This document shows positions 2,548 through 24,536 of a stretch of DNA of 25,383 bases, in pieces. Positions within the stretch are counted from its first letter, which is position 1, and each line of letters starts with the position of its first letter. The notes under the pieces are model-generated. The model had not been told where the DNA came from and made no database searches. It saw only the letters and a program-made list of their open reading frames with translations. Location of the stretch: positions 1-25,383 of IMG/VR virus record IMGVR_UViG_3300022658_000321; one strand, given 5' to 3'. The translations under genes were made by a program, and so were the position numbers. Origin of the DNA: a virus.

Positions 2548-4238
2548 CGCCTGGTGAATTGCAGCAATGGGACGTTGATTACGGCTTGCCAGTGCTGCGA
2601 TATGAAATCGTGACTGGCCGTCTTGTCTATCTCGCGGTCGTTCGACATTACACCGATCTCATTCATGGTCACAAACGTGGACTCAGTTTCAGCGCTGGCC
2701 ACGGTTGGCACGTCATCAACTACATCGAAAAATTCTTTGTCCACATCAAAGGCCCACTCGCAGGCAAGCCAATCCTGCTCGATCCGTGGCAGAAGTTCTG
2801 GACTGCGGTGCTGTATGGGTGGCGGCGTGCTGATGGTGGTCGCCGATTCTCACGCGGGTACGAAGAAGTTGCTCGTAAAAACGGCAAGTCAACGTGGAAA
2901 GGACCACAAGGCGCATATCTTTTTTCGATGGCCGGTGAGATCGGCGCTGAGGTCTATGCCGTGGCGACAACGCGATCACAAGCGATGACGGTTTTTAAAC
3001 CTGCGTTCGATAACATTAAGCGCTGGGTGCGGCGCTCACCGGGGATTGCCAGATCGTTCAAAGTGTTTGGTGGTTTGAACCAGGAGAAGGTTGAGTGCGA
3101 CACGTCAGTCTTTGCGCCATTGCCGGCGAACGCGGAAAACTTGGACGGTCTGAATCCTTCAGCAATTTTGTTCGATGAATTGCATGCACAGAAGACCCGC
3201 GATGTGTGGGACGTAATGGAGTCCGCGCTCGGTGCGCGTTTTGAGCCTTTGCTCTCAGCGATCACCACGGCTGGTTTCATCCTTGACGGCATTTGTACTG
3301 AGGTGCGTTCGTACCTGATTTCAGTATTGGAGGGTAAGCGTATTGATGATGCCTTTTTTGGTTATGTCTATACGCTTGACGAAGGTGACGATCCGTTTGA
3401 CGAAACCAACTGGATTAAAGCCAATCCCGGCCTTGGCAAGTCCAAGACACTGGAATACATGCGCGGCATGGCGCGTAAAGCGGCTGCTTTACCTGGTGCT
3501 TTGGTCAATTTCCTGACCAAAGACTTGAATGTCTGGTGTAACAGCGCCGACGGCTGGTTCAACATCAATGTCTGGGACAAGGGAAATAAGAAGTTTGACC
3601 CTGAAATGTTGCGTGGTCGGCTCTGTTATGGCGGTCTTGACCTTGGATCAACACGCGATTTGACTGCATTTTCGCTGGTTTTTCCTCCTGATCAGGAAGG
3701 TGGTGACTGGCATGTATTGGTCTGGTTCTGGTGTCCACAAGAAAAAATCGACACGCAAGAGCATGACGATGCCGCGCCGTACAAACGATGGCAGAAAGAG
3801 GGCTGGCTGATCGGCACAGAGGGCAACGTGACTGATTACAACCAAGTGAAGTTGCAAATTATCCGTGCGATGCAGCAGTACGAAGTCAAGGAAATCGGCT
3901 TTGACAGGTGGAACGCCTTGCAGCTGGCAAACGAGCTGCTTGATATGAATGTGCCACTAGTTGAAGTTCCGCAAAACACGGGCGGCATGTATCCCGGAAG
4001 TAAAAAGCTCGAAGAGCTGGTCTACGGAAAATTCTTTCAGCATGGCGGCAATCCAGTGCTGCGCTGGTGTGCAATGAATGTTGCCCTTCTCTTTGATACG
4101 AACGGTAACTATCGGCCTGACAAGAAAAAGTCGAACCTCAACGGTCGTATCGACGGCATTGTCGCCACTGTCATGGCGTTAGCGCGCGCAGGCGATGTGG
4201 TCAACGACACAATCACACAAGGCTTTGTTGAAACATGA
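2406..4238 (+). CDS. terL: Terminase large subunit (packaging ATPase/nuclease)
   Basis: The motor that pumps DNA into the prohead and cuts concatemers. 610 residues if started at 2406; an in-frame ATG at 2421 is equally possible. Conserved sequence begins only near residue 55 (WDVDYGLPVLRYEIVTGRL). The ATPase half shows LAGKPILLDPWQKFW (118-132), a Walker A-like VARKNGKST (155-163) and Walker B ILFDEL (254-259). The nuclease half shows GGLDLGSTRDLTAF near residue 407 and EIGFDRWNA near 495, both with metal-binding-type acidic residues. This is the HK97-type Terminase_1 architecture. The first 45-50 codons overlap terS and look low in information, so the true start may be later or non-canonical. 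The stop overlaps the portal start (ATGA). Confidence 0.93.
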   Translation: MATESMSDDTVAGQNQKGHGREKRSGRSVRRSRKPCYVLTRKKIDQLTPGELQQWDVDYGLPVLRYEIVTGRLVYLAVVRHYTDLIHGHKRGLSFSAGHGWHVINYIEKFFVHIKGPLAGKPILLDPWQKFWTAVLYGWRRADGGRRFSRGYEEVARKNGKSTWKGPQGAYLFSMAGEIGAEVYAVATTRSQAMTVFKPAFDNIKRWVRRSPGIARSFKVFGGLNQEKVECDTSVFAPLPANAENLDGLNPSAILFDELHAQKTRDVWDVMESALGARFEPLLSAITTAGFILDGICTEVRSYLISVLEGKRIDDAFFGYVYTLDEGDDPFDETNWIKANPGLGKSKTLEYMRGMARKAAALPGALVNFLTKDLNVWCNSADGWFNINVWDKGNKKFDPEMLRGRLCYGGLDLGSTRDLTAFSLVFPPDQEGGDWHVLVWFWCPQEKIDTQEHDDAAPYKRWQKEGWLIGTEGNVTDYNQVKLQIIRAMQQYEVKEIGFDRWNALQLANELLDMNVPLVEVPQNTGGMYPGSKKLEELVYGKFFQHGGNPVLRWCAMNVALLFDTNGNYRPDKKKSNLNGRIDGIVATVMALARAGDVVNDTITQGFVET

Positions 4239-5538
4239 ACGCAAATTGGAATGAAGTAAGAGCGCGAGCTGCTCAACCTGGCTCAACTGTCCTCACGCAA
4301 TGGAACGCAGAGAGACAGGCTGCAAAGATCAACAATGCGACGAACGGCGTATCGTTTATGCAAAGTTCAGATCCCCGCGTCATTGAATTTTTAGGCGGGA
4401 CGCCAGCTGCTGCTGGTGTGTATGTCACACCAGAGTCAGCACAACGTGTTGCGGCAGTGTTTTCTTGCGTTGATCGTATCGCTGGTGGCGTCAGTGTCTT
4501 GCCAGTAAAAATGTATAAGGTCGGCAGCAGTCGCGAAGAAATCGAAAAAGACTTCATGGTCGATTTGATGAATAAGCGACCTTGTCCAGCGTGGATCGCA
4601 GCAAGTCACTGGCGGCGCATTATGGAGTACATCTTGCTCCGGGGTGATGCTTACACGCTGATTAAGCGTAATCGTATGGGCGACATCAAAGAGTTGGTGC
4701 CGCTGCCCTGGGCTTCGGTCGTCGTGTTGCGTGAAACACTCGCAATTGATAGTCGCAATATATATTCCGTCAATGATGGTATGACGATCAAGGGATACGA
4801 CCAGGACGACATCTTGCATTTCCCGGGTTATGGCTTTGACGGTATGCATAGCTGCTCAGTGATCAGCTGGGGCGCACGAAACGCGAGTGGCAACGCTATC
4901 GCGATGGACGAGTATTCTGGCCGTTTCTTCGATGGTGGGGCGCATCCTAGCATTGTCTTGACGACCGAAAAAAGATGGATCAGAAGCAGATCGATCTGTT
5001 GCAGATGACGTTTGCAAACAAATATAGCGGTACTGGAAATTCTCACAAGCGACCACTAGTTTTAACGGAAGGGATGGGCGTTGATAATGTTAGCTTGAGT
5101 GCTGCTGATTCGCAGTTGCTAGAAGCACGTAAATTTCAAGTCGTCGAAATCGCTCGAGCGTTCGGTGTCCCTCCGCATTTGATCGGCGAAACATCAGCAT
5201 CGACCAGCTGGGGAAGCGGCATTGAAAGTATGGGGCGTGCGTTTGTGATGTTCACGCTTGATCCGCATCTAACGCGCATCGAGCAGGAGCTTAATAGCAA
5301 GCTCTTTCCAAACGGTGAGTACTTCCTTGAGTTTGATCGATCGGTGTTGATGGCCGGTGATTTGAAAACCCAAGCTGAGTTCTACACGGCGGCATTAGGT
5401 GGTCCCGGTGCTGGACCTGGCTACATGACGCAAAACGAGATCCGCAAACGCCAAAATCTGCCGCCGCTGGCGGGTGGTGACAAGTTGTTCAACCCTGAGC
5501 CGAAAGCAAACGGCAACAAACAAGGTCAAGAAACATGA
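4235..5538 (+). pseudogene. Portal protein, HK97 family, split by a one-base frameshift
   Basis: The dodecameric ring through which DNA enters the head and to which the tail attaches. Two ORFs carry it: 4235-5008 (257 codons, N-terminal part with VTPESAQRVAAVFSCVDRIA and VPLPWASV) and 4975-5538 (187 codons, C-terminal part with ARAFGVPPHLIGE and the TSWGSGIESMGRAF core). Homologues read straight across the junction. Here the first frame runs GAA AAA AGA TGG at 4967-4978 and derails into 11 unrelated residues. Adding one A to the six-A run at 4968-4973 restores ...TTEKKMDQKQIDLLQ... and a protein of about 434 residues, normal for the family. The cause may be a real mutation, a sequencing error, or (less likely) recoding. 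The final ATGA overlaps the protease start. Confidence 0.88.
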
Positions 5539-18195: not shown

Positions 18196-18461
18196 GGTAT
18201 CAAGAATACGATTGTGCATGCATATCAGTGGACTTTGTCTGGCGCGCAACGACAAGTGGTGCAGCGATTTATACCTGGGCAACAGCGAGTTACGACAATG
18301 TTCCTGCGACAGGATGGAGCGCAATTAAACCACCGCCTCCGACCGTTGGTGCCACTCTTTACGAGGCATCGTTCGGTCTTGTGGAAACAAAGGGAGCGCC
18401 GACAAGTGCAATTGATTGGTCGCAGGCAAGCGTTGTCAGTATCGGCTATCTCGGTGTAGAT

Positions 18462-19039: not shown

Positions 19040-19267
19040 ATGAGTGATTTTTACTTTCGCACATGGGATGCAAACGGGGTGCTGACCTTTGGATCGAACG
19101 ACCGGCTGGGGCGCATTCTTGGTCGCATCGACGTGATCGGCGCAAACAACAATGGTACTTTCAACGATCCAGCGATGCTTAATGGTGATCCATTTGCATT
19201 CTTTTTTCAGATGGAACTGGATCTACATGGGTGGCATGTCTCGCCTCCGCAAGTGGGCAAACTGTAA
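19040..19267 (+). CDS. Small tail-tip protein; C-terminal 29 residues lost by an apparent one-base deletion
   Basis: 75 codons as read: MSDFYFRTWDANGVLTFGSNDRL... resembles the small proteins (about 100 residues, starting M-x-D/E-Y-x-x-x-x-W/Y-x-x-x-G-x-L-T-F) encoded in tail-tip clusters, role unknown. The frame ends abruptly in GTG GGC AAA CTG TAA. Adding one G at 19255-19257 continues as GQTVTWTFGGLNANQGNNNP plus SGFILYGIR and stops at 19342-19344, giving 101 residues with a sensible beta-strand end. The restored C-terminus would overlap the start of the following gene by 56 bases in another frame. It starts 2 bases after the fibre stop. Confidence 0.6.
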   Translation: MSDFYFRTWDANGVLTFGSNDRLGRILGRIDVIGANNNGTFNDPAMLNGDPFAFFFQMELDLHGWHVSPPQVGKL

Positions 19268-19288
19268 CGTGGACTTTTGGAGGTTTAA

Positions 19289-20092
19289 ATGCAAATCAAG
19301 GCAACAATAATCCTAGCGGCTTTATTTTGTACGGCATTCGTTAGTGCCTGTGGTGGTGGCTCAGGGAATCCGAGTATCAACAGTGAAGCAGATGTGATCG
19401 ATCAACAAAGTTTGGAGCGTGTAAATAATATGCCGAATGGTTTTAGGATCGTAGGAGATCATGGCGTAGTTCAAATTGATGACTCTTTTTTTAACTTAGG
19501 TTTAAAAGCGAAAGGGCAGCTGTATATGCCGCCGCAATCGGCAAGCATGCAATACGCAACCCTTACTGTCACGGCAGACACCCCTGTACTCTGTATTCGT
19601 CCCGTAGTGACATCAATTGCATTAATTAGTGTGACTCGGTCAGGAAATCAGTACACATATACCTTTGGCGGAAAAGACCCTTCTTCTGAAACGTTTGCGT
19701 GGTACCTGTTCGATAAAATGCCAGTGGTTGATAAGTGGGGGGCTGCTATGGTTTGGAATGCCAGTGGTCAGCCGGTCTTTAACTCTGATTATCCAGTGAT
19801 GAAAGTCGCTGCGATTTCAAACTTACCTAACACGGTGCTTATGACGCAGGCCGGTGCTATAGACGCAGGGGTGGCGAGTGTGTATGCAGTTTGTGTCACG
19901 CAAGGGCGCATTCAACACATCAGTTCGCGGGCAGGTATGGGATTTCAAGGTGCGTTGCTGGTGGAAGGGGTAAAAGTAACGAACACCGGTGCTGTAACGA
20001 AAGCCTTAGTTCGTAGTAATGATTCTGCGGGTGTGCTCTATGCTACAACGCAGGGCGGCCAATTAATGCTTGTCGACGTGTCGGGGCTGTAA
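19289..20092 (+). CDS. Predicted lipoprotein carrying a phage tail-type domain
   Basis: 267 residues with an excellent ribosome site (GGAGG 5 bases before the ATG). The N-terminus is a textbook lipoprotein signal: MQIK, hydrophobic TIILAALFCTAFV, lipobox VSAC with Cys21, then GGGSG. From about residue 48 (MPNGFRIVGDHGVVQIDDSFFNLGLKAKG...) it looks like small tail-tip proteins of temperate phages that normally start near that Met and end ...PVFNSDYPVMKVA. An internal ATG at 19430 would give that cytoplasmic form, but its nearest GGAG is 12 bases away. If exported, it would sit in the outer membrane or periplasm rather than the virion, perhaps as a surface-modifying or superinfection-exclusion protein. 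That role is inference. Confidence 0.6.
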   Translation: MQIKATIILAALFCTAFVSACGGGSGNPSINSEADVIDQQSLERVNNMPNGFRIVGDHGVVQIDDSFFNLGLKAKGQLYMPPQSASMQYATLTVTADTPVLCIRPVVTSIALISVTRSGNQYTYTFGGKDPSSETFAWYLFDKMPVVDKWGAAMVWNASGQPVFNSDYPVMKVAAISNLPNTVLMTQAGAIDAGVASVYAVCVTQGRIQHISSRAGMGFQGALLVEGVKVTNTGAVTKALVRSNDSAGVLYATTQGGQLMLVDVSGL

Positions 20093-20922
20093 TGGCTAAC
20101 CTACGCATTATTTATGACAACGCAGCAGATAGGGCAACGATATCCGCAAGCTCTGTCGCCGGTGCGATGCTGCCAGTTGCCTTGCAAAACGATACCAAGT
20201 CAGATGTGTGGCGATCAACGTCGACGTCTGCGGCATTGACGCTGACATGGCAAACATCTGAGGTCGTTACTGCTGTTGCGCTGTGTTACAGCAACCTGAC
20301 ATCGCAAGCAATGATTCGGATTAGCGGCTTTACCAATGCCGCCGATACGGTACCGGTTTTCGTTAGCAACTATATCTTTGCCTGTCCAGCTGCGCCGTTT
20401 GAGCAGTTTGGATGGGGGCGAGCCGCACTGGGTCTCAACGCGTACATGTACGGTGGCTCAATTGCGCAAGCGTGGTTGCCGACACCTCTGATCCTTCAAA
20501 AACTGCTGATCGAGGTGGTGGATACGTCGAATCTTGCTGAATACATTGAGGTTGGCCGCGTCATCGCCGGTGACTACTGGTCGCCTGAACGTAGCGCAGA
20601 GCTAGGCGCGACGATCACTATTGTGGATGCTAGTAAGCATTACAGAACGGATGCTGGTGATTTGCTCACAGACATGGCCACGCGCCATCGAAAGCAAAAT
20701 ATCGCCCCGGCAGTGATGGCAGGCGCTGATCGTACCCGGTTGTGGGAAATTCTATGGGGTGGTGGTATCGCCCGACCGGTGTTCTTTAGCTTGTATCCGG
20801 AGGCGAGGGATACGCTCCTGGAGCAGACGCACAGCATGTATTGCAAACTCAACGTCATGCCTGTAATGACGACACCATTTTTTAACAGATTTACAGCTCA
20901 GTTAGAGCTTGAGGAGGTTTGA
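20092..20922 (+). CDS. Tail-associated structural protein of unknown function
   Basis: 276 residues, coupled to the upstream gene (TAATG) and to the fibre gene downstream (TGATG). The N-terminal half looks like a beta-sandwich (LTLTWQTSEVVTAVALCYSNLTSQAMIRISGF, FVSNYIF, KLLIEVVDTSNLAEYIEVGRVIAGDYWSPE), reminiscent of discoidin-type carbohydrate-binding folds. The C-terminal part (ARPVFFSLYPEARD...) is compact and without known motifs. Proteins of this style occur next to fibre genes in Burkholderiales prophages. A role as a tail-tip or fibre-attachment component is likely from position; sugar binding is only a suggestion from the predicted fold. Confidence 0.55.
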   Translation: MANLRIIYDNAADRATISASSVAGAMLPVALQNDTKSDVWRSTSTSAALTLTWQTSEVVTAVALCYSNLTSQAMIRISGFTNAADTVPVFVSNYIFACPAAPFEQFGWGRAALGLNAYMYGGSIAQAWLPTPLILQKLLIEVVDTSNLAEYIEVGRVIAGDYWSPERSAELGATITIVDASKHYRTDAGDLLTDMATRHRKQNIAPAVMAGADRTRLWEILWGGGIARPVFFSLYPEARDTLLEQTHSMYCKLNVMPVMTTPFFNRFTAQLELEEV

Positions 20923-23557: not shown

Positions 23558-24021
23558 ACGCTATTCAAAAAAGTTTAGCCGCCATCGTTGGTTCGGCCGC
23601 TGCAGCCGGTCTGCTGGTTTTGACACCAGCGGAAGAGGGTACTGTCTACAAGACCTATAAAGACTTGGGCGGTGTTCTCACCTATTGCACCGGCGCGACC
23701 GAGAATGCGATCTGGGGCAAGACATATACGCCGGCCGAGTGCAAAGTCCAGCTCGATAGAGACCTGGCACGGCATGCTGAAGGTGTTATGGAGTGCGTTC
23801 CTGTACCGCTGACCGATGGGCAGAAAATCGCTTTTGTCGATGCGGCATACAACGTCGGCATCAAAGCATTCTGCGACTCATCGATGGCCAAGAAAGCGAA
23901 TGCTGGTGATTTGGTCGGTTCGTGCGATGCATTGATGCTCTGGAATAAAGTCGGCGGTAAGGTAGTTGCTGGCATCACTAAACGAAGGGCGCAAGAGAGG
24001 GAAATATGCTTGAAAAAGTAA
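23554..24021 (+). CDS. SAR endolysin (GH24 lysozyme)
   Basis: 155 residues. It hydrolyses the MurNAc-GlcNAc bond of peptidoglycan. The catalytic triad fits the T4 lysozyme pattern exactly: Glu28-x8-Asp37-x5-Thr43 in EGTVYKTYKDLGGVLTYCTG. The N-terminus (residues 7-23, AAIVGSAAAAGLLVLTP) is a weakly hydrophobic Ala/Gly-rich segment typical of signal-arrest-release endolysins, which tether inactive in the membrane and are released when it is depolarised. Several cysteines (45, about 62, 80, 108, 121 and near the C-terminus) could form the disulfides known in P21/P1-type SAR lysozymes. A SAR endolysin predicts a pinholin-type partner nearby. It overlaps Rz by 16 bases. Confidence 0.92.
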   Translation: MNAIQKSLAAIVGSAAAAGLLVLTPAEEGTVYKTYKDLGGVLTYCTGATENAIWGKTYTPAECKVQLDRDLARHAEGVMECVPVPLTDGQKIAFVDAAYNVGIKAFCDSSMAKKANAGDLVGSCDALMLWNKVGGKVVAGITKRRAQEREICLKK

Positions 24022-24536
24022 TTACGTCAGCAGTAGTCGTCATCATCGTCGGAGCAGGTCTGTACGTAGGATATGAACACGTAAAAGACCTGGGCCGTGC
24101 TGAAGTTCAAGCAGAGTGGAATGCCGACAAAGAGCGTCAAGATAAGGCGGCGAAAGCCGCTATTGCTAAGCGTGAAGCTGAAAATATCCAAGTGGCCGCT
24201 GCTCAGGCAGAGACCGTCAAACTCATTAAAAAAGGAGAGGCAAATGAAAAAGCACGTAGCGATGCTATTAATGCCGCTGCTCTTAGTAGCATGCGCAGCG
24301 ACCCCAGAAGTCAAGGTCGTGGACTTACCGGAACCACCAAAGCCGAAGATCCCAGCGAGTCTGATAAGAACACTACCGGAGCCTGGCTACTTTCAAACGC
24401 AGGGCTGCAAGATTTATTCGCTCGTTTGCGATACGCAGACGAAATAGTCGCTGGTTGCAGGGCGCAGCAAACGTTTTTATACGATAACGATTTAATAGAA
24501 AGGAATCACGATGGCATGGATCAACCCGCTCGATAG
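24006..24536 (+). CDS. Rz: Rz-like inner-membrane spanin (i-spanin)
   Basis: 176 residues with GAGAGGGA before the ATG. One N-terminal membrane anchor (VITSAVVVIIVGAGLYVGY, about residues 5-23) precedes a long periplasmic Ala/Lys/Glu-rich coiled coil (AEVQAEWNADKERQDKAAKAA...) and a compact C-terminal segment (LQDLFARLRYADEIVAGC). With the nested Rz1 lipoprotein it would bridge the envelope and fuse inner and outer membranes in the last step of lysis. It lies directly after the endolysin (16-base overlap) and overlaps the next gene by 26 bases. The low-complexity middle (RSDPRSQGRGLTGTTKAEDP) is where the Rz1 frame is imposed. Confidence 0.88.
   Translation: MLEKVITSAVVVIIVGAGLYVGYEHVKDLGRAEVQAEWNADKERQDKAAKAAIAKREAENIQVAAAQAETVKLIKKGEANEKARSDAINAAALSSMRSDPRSQGRGLTGTTKAEDPSESDKNTTGAWLLSNAGLQDLFARLRYADEIVAGCRAQQTFLYDNDLIERNHDGMDQPAR
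24244..24447 (+). CDS. Rz1: Rz1-like outer-membrane spanin lipoprotein nested in Rz
   Basis: 67 residues entirely inside Rz in the +1 frame. AAAGGAGAGG ends about 4 bases before the ATG at 24244; this is far better than any upstream start in the same frame. MKKHVAMLLMPLLLVAC is a lipoprotein signal with lipobox LVAC and Cys17. The mature part is short and proline-rich (LPEPPKPKIPASLIRTLPEPG), as in Rz1 proteins, and it has two further cysteines near the end. It partners with the i-spanin through C-terminal contacts. Embedded Rz/Rz1 pairs are well known. Confidence 0.88.
   Translation: MKKHVAMLLMPLLLVACAATPEVKVVDLPEPPKPKIPASLIRTLPEPGYFQTQGCKIYSLVCDTQTK

Follow-up and report, generated by a model that had tools for sequence, protein, structure and literature searches.

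A probable lipoprotein variant of the phrog_4062 tail-module family with a signal peptide overprinted on the preceding phage gene

The DNA analysed here (25,383 nucleotides, referred to as the window) comes from an IMG/VR record and represents part of a temperate tailed phage. It encodes a terminase, a portal, a protease, an HK97-type capsid and a major tail protein as well as a tape measure protein, fibre genes, an endolysin, Rz/Rz1 and an integrase. An open reading frame of 267 codons, present at 19289–20092 on the plus strand as predicted, is preceded by a collagen-type fibre gene and a small phrog_2427 gene and followed by a phrog_8610 gene and a tail fibre gene with an S74 chaperone. The start of the phrog_8610 tail-module gene (20092–20922, plus strand) overlaps the stop codon of the ORF by 1 nt, and the same neighbour is found in the two related prophages L004 and L009 described below. 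Comparison with shuffled sequences revealed no promoter above chance near the ORF, so that the ORF is likely to be expressed as part of the late tail operon. In a quiet lysogen the gene is probably silent.

The original prediction had placed a lipoprotein signal with the lipobox VSAC at the beginning of this ORF, and our own lipoprotein rule recovered it. The N-terminus reads MQIKATIILAALFCTAFVSAC-GGGSG and displays the features of a type II signal peptide, namely a basic n-region (K4), a hydrophobic core and a lipobox with its cysteine. The signal peptide comprises residues 1–20 (19289–19348, plus strand). The lipobox V18-S19-A20-C21 and the adjoining GGGSG form residues 18–26 (19340–19366, plus strand), with the Cys21 codon at 19349–19351, leaving a mature lipoprotein of 247 aa. 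A variable linker follows (residues 27–47; 19367–19429, plus strand), which is predicted to be disordered and differs in length by whole codons between loci. It leads to an internal methionine, Met48 (19430–19432, plus strand), which is the usual start of phrog_4062 proteins, is present in all three known lipoprotein forms and might serve as a second start. Translation from the upstream start is preceded by the Shine-Dalgarno (SD) sequence GGAGG (19279–19283, plus strand), whose calculated anti-SD duplex energy of −10.0 kcal/mol lies beyond the first percentile of the background (−8.4).

The lipoprotein rule, a fixed rule of our own built from a regular expression and hydropathy, was applied to all ATG, GTG and TTG starts on both strands. 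Two of the 2,801 starts in the window passed, that of ORF 19289–20092 and that of the spanin gene Rz1 (24244). Among approximately 25,000 starts in 32 loci the same rule picked the three lipoprotein forms, Rz1-type spanins, one Bcep176 lipoprotein and a handful of other ORFs, mostly short. The Rz and Rz1 genes of the window (24006–24536) represent an ordinary two-component spanin, in which Rz1, with the lipobox LVAC, overlaps in another frame. Within the same bacterial family, lipoproteins encoded by hosts begin with near-identical signals, for example MKSKFHILAALVCAAALTACGGGS, and the host machinery should therefore accept the phage signal. The loci L011 and L014 hold such host lipoproteins of the FKBP-like type, and it is here that MKSKFHILAALVCAAALTACGGGS closely resembles the signal of the phage.

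Two points had not been part of the original prediction: the actual C-terminal coding region of the upstream phrog_2427 gene extends in another frame into the signal, and this gene is frame-broken in the window. The ORF list gives this gene for a small tail-module protein as 19040–19267. A tblastn search with an intact relative returned two abutting pieces in two frames with one break, located at a run of six T residues (T6, 19202–19207). In the −1 frame after this single-base break, the reading continues as ...DGTGSTWVACLASASGQTVTWTFGGLNANQGNNNPSGFILYGIR to a stop codon at 19342–19344, so that the gene covers 19040–19344 (plus strand) and the end of its true product is encoded, in a different frame, by the DNA of the signal peptide. 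The first 56 nt of the signal peptide sequence are shared with the 3′ end of the upstream gene. The T6 break is probably a sequence error. In total, the window contains at least four single-base frame breaks (4968–4973, about 17555, about 18210–18240 and 19202–19207), two of them at homopolymers, in the conserved genes for the portal, a phrog_8917 protein, the collagen fibre and the phrog_2427 protein. These breaks are probably sequence errors as well.

The same extension was found in two further prophages, one of Undibacterium squillarum (L004) and one of a congener (L009), at approximately 52–64% identity over the whole proteins. The L009 genome belongs to the same GTDB genus as L004, and a further locus, L054, is identical to L009, which makes three distinct loci in all. 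The upstream phrog_2427 gene is unbroken in L004 (99 aa) and in L009, where its product ends in NNPSGYIMYGVF and ANPSGFINYGIF, respectively. The next ORF begins within this gene in another frame, with MVRTRVRTILLATLCTAFFSAC-GGGSG in L004 and MRIKVQILAGLLITAFFSGC-GGGSG in L009. Hence the signal starts inside the 3′ end of a phrog_2427 gene in all three loci, and the cysteine to be lipidated and the disordered glycine-rich tether sit just beyond the upstream stop codon.

Downstream of that stop codon the DNA is constrained by the lipoprotein frame only. Here the sequence S-A/G-C-G-G-G-S-G is kept in all three loci; seven of eight third positions are variable as against one of 16 first and second positions (Fisher p=1.8e-4 for third-position versus other variation in SAC-GGGSG). 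Judged by this pattern of substitutions, SAC-GGGSG is under purifying selection. A strong SD sequence precedes the lipoprotein start in every locus (−10.0 in the window, −6.8 and −9.4 in the other two). When the upstream ends were recoded synonymously in simulations, such a lipoprotein start appeared in 0.3–1.6% of trials, and the shifted frames of six relatives without the extension showed no lipoprotein-like start. Because the signal is kept in two other genomes with variation of the synonymous type, is rare in recoding and is absent in six relatives, the lipoprotein reading appears to be real and selected. The alternative of a virion family to which the complete ORF, N-terminus included, would belong was not borne out: the extension was absent from all non-lipoprotein relatives examined. 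Export, as originally proposed, is the best reading in view of the conservation of the signal in three loci, and the product is very probably an exported lipoprotein.

A search for the extension in about 1,000 relative genomes, one genome-contig scan and seven viral-contig scans yielded only the three distinct loci. It is present in two of 43 genomes of the genus, and each of the three genomes carries a single phrog_4062 copy. Given this narrow distribution, the extension seems to have been acquired recently by Undibacterium phages. A literature search found no report on lipoproteins of Undibacterium prophages.

The remainder of the protein is an all-beta phrog_4062 domain (19430–20089, plus strand). 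A search with residues 48–267 matched the phrog_4062 profile over its full length (1–230 of 230; E=2.5e-21) and began exactly at Met48, in agreement with the earlier proposal of a phage domain that usually starts near this internal methionine. ORF 19289–20092 is a lipoprotein variant of the phrog_4062 family. An AlphaFold model of the domain was all-beta with middling confidence (pLDDT 65, pTM 0.68); when the tether was included, it was disordered and confidence was no better. The best fold matches in BFVD belong to the same family, with phiL7 p23 at E=3.4e-9. In the homologue from Acinetobacter phage P1 (L001, 4028–4720), residues 108–163 match phrog_2427, and phrog_4062 proteins therefore look like a tandem pair that arose by duplication of the single domain encoded upstream. 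Two cysteines, C102 (19592–19594) and C202 (19892–19894), are conserved in all three lipoprotein forms. Among 11 other members, none has a cysteine in the C102 column and phiL7 alone has one in the C202 column. Such conservation is compatible with an oxidising compartment, although common descent might equally account for it.

Family members located after a J or tail-fibre gene and a phrog_2427 gene are phiL7 p23, BcepGomr gp24, Almagne, KS9 gp21 and Bcep176 gp60, and by annotation phi1026b gp22 and phiE125 gp23 also belong to phrog_4062. ORF 19289–20092 resembles these proteins in its full-length domain, its beta fold and its position directly after the small phrog_2427 gene of the tail module. 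In contrast, their reading frames start at a methionine right after the upstream gene and lack a signal peptide, where the protein described here has a 47-residue extension. On plasmid pPAU1 of Photorhabdus asymbiotica (L039), two tandem pairs of phrog_2427 and phrog_4062/6061 genes (900–1867 and 2675–3654) lie near a colicin-like pore-forming gene and a short lipoprotein ORF (3864–4094), so the cassette also occurs outside tail operons.

The proposed tail-type nature of the domain held in part. The phage family and the placement in a tail module were confirmed. A role as a tail-tip virion protein is suggested solely by the position after the J/fibre gene, and PHROGs labels phrog_4062 as 'unknown function'. 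A literature search found no virion proteomics on a confirmed phrog_4062 member. The virion study of Xop411 lists proteins, and no link between its p24 and phrog_4062 could be made, as phiL7 p23 gave no match in Xop411. Searches of Pfam, NCBIfam and PADLOC returned no family for the ORF and no match to a defence family, a sequence search against solved structures gave no match for the domain, and Foldseek on the PDB gave none below 0.001 for its model. Known exclusion proteins matched the domain neither in sequence nor in fold in the searches run. VIA-align reported Z-scores of up to 7 with the receptor-binding domains of the Pam1 and LKA1 tailspikes, the Oekolampad RBP, the R2 pyocin fibre and unrelated beta sandwiches. 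Values of this size are usual for so common a beta arrangement and were rejected as evidence of kinship.

Phage lipoproteins as such are already known. The Llp protein of T5 blocks the receptor FhuA (PMC9586334), and Rtp45 blocks LptDE (PMC12685063). Like the ORF described here, these and other outer-membrane exclusion lipoproteins are phage-encoded and lie near receptor-binding genes. Rtp45 is a protein of approximately 6 kDa, however, and ORF 19289–20092, which shows no sequence match to it, does not share this small size, its mature form of 247 aa being derived from a tail-module domain. Ltp of TP-J34 is a surface-exposed phage lipoprotein conferring superinfection exclusion, but it is encoded in the lysogeny module of a phage of a Gram-positive host and not in a tail operon. 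The overlapped o-spanins of the Rz/Rz1 type provide a parallel in gene layout, in that their lipoprotein start also lies in the upstream gene in another frame (PMC6139136). Their partner is the i-spanin of a lysis cassette, whereas the partner found here is the phrog_2427 gene of a tail module and the product contains a large folded domain. The protein is very probably a phage envelope lipoprotein in which an overprinted signal precedes a domain from the tail module.

From these results and known rules of lipoprotein export, we propose how a phrog_4062 tail-module protein may have become an envelope lipoprotein. A second reading frame over the last part of the preceding phrog_2427 gene would have supplied its signal peptide by overprinting. 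Synthesis would occur late, together with the other products of the tail operon, and be followed by Sec-dependent export, lipidation at Cys21 and sorting to the outer membrane by the Lol system. According to the Lol sorting rules established for E. coli, glycine at position +2, in the absence of aspartate, directs a lipoprotein to the outer membrane, and this location is predicted here on the same grounds. The most likely target of the anchored beta domains, kin of a cassette adjoining tail-tip and fibre genes, would be the phage receptor or a partner on the virion, which they would occupy. In this way progeny would not be lost to debris, to sister cells or to cells already infected, and a second phage would meet resistance. 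An envelope-anchored, late-made blocker of adsorption or superinfection is the function we favour, with a probability of roughly 0.4. Signal, overlap, conservation, lipobox selection, family membership and operon position were seen directly; export, lipidation, outer-membrane sorting and timing follow from known rules, and the blocking of a receptor or virion is inferred. In favour of this function are the lipoprotein N-terminus and its conservation, the selection on the lipobox, the strong SD sequences, the rarity of such starts in recoding, the conserved cysteines and the precedent of phage lipoproteins that block receptors. The missing match to exclusion proteins, the much smaller size of Llp and Rtp45, the tail-operon site, the limitation to three distinct loci and the middling domain model count against it.

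The main rival is a gene with two starts, a tentative possibility in which the upstream start would give the exported lipoprotein and Met48 a cytoplasmic form joining the virion. In its favour, there is a single phrog_4062 copy per genome and Met48 is kept in all three loci despite the diverging linker ahead of it. The SD sequence at Met48 is fair in the window (−6.8), yet moderate in L009 (−5.0) and unremarkable in L004 (−3.0), and the motif E-x-V-x-N before the methionine looks conserved as protein. Moreover, members of the family are only putative virion proteins, and the phrog_2427/phrog_4062 pair is missing from several related tail modules. The fuller version, one gene with two products, appears doubtful: an outer-membrane lipoprotein with the overprinted signal would display the phage's own tail-module domain on the envelope and occupy the receptor or partner virions, and the Met48 form would enter the virion.

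Three further readings were considered. As a moron for lysogenic conversion or adhesion, the envelope lipoprotein would alter binding or attachment at the host surface and would not act on phages. Lectin- and adhesin-like beta folds among the weak structural matches, a weak match to phrog_425 ('membrane associated protein', moron class; E 9e-5) and late lipoproteins of other phages such as Bcep176 gp55 are consistent with such a role. We regard it as unlikely, given that the gene lies within the tail operon without a promoter of its own and that weak Z-scores are common among beta sandwiches. (Bcep176 gp55, at 4511–5377 of L056, is a 288-aa lipoprotein (SLAACGGGDDSG) right after the lysis genes and is annotated as phiE125 gp28-like.) That the signal is a chance wrong-frame reading of the upstream gene, with Met48 as the true start, was to be expected from the overlap: the true upstream C-terminus spans 19289–19344 in the other frame, and the sequence contains several frame breaks. 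Two clean genomes nevertheless keep the signal, the SD sequence and the open linker, and the lipobox cysteine and GGGSG are encoded beyond the upstream gene, with synonymous variation only, except for A/G at −1. Conservation in two genomes and synonymous variation largely refute this reading, which is now very improbable. A spanin-like outer-membrane lipoprotein aiding lysis would account for the gene layout, which is that of an overlapped o-spanin (PMC6139136). It seems hardly credible for a domain of a tail-module family in a phage that already has its own Rz/Rz1 pair.

The favoured blocker would differ in its origin from known superinfection-exclusion lipoproteins, for which we know of no evident kinship to the tail genes of the same phage. 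In the present case the anchored part is itself a domain from the tail module, and its envelope anchor was created de novo by reading a tail gene in a second frame, which makes both the origin by overprinting and the possible function, self-mimicry at the receptor, testable. The locus also points to a source of annotation errors, as gene callers that avoid overlaps would choose Met48 as the start, and the export signal would go unannotated.
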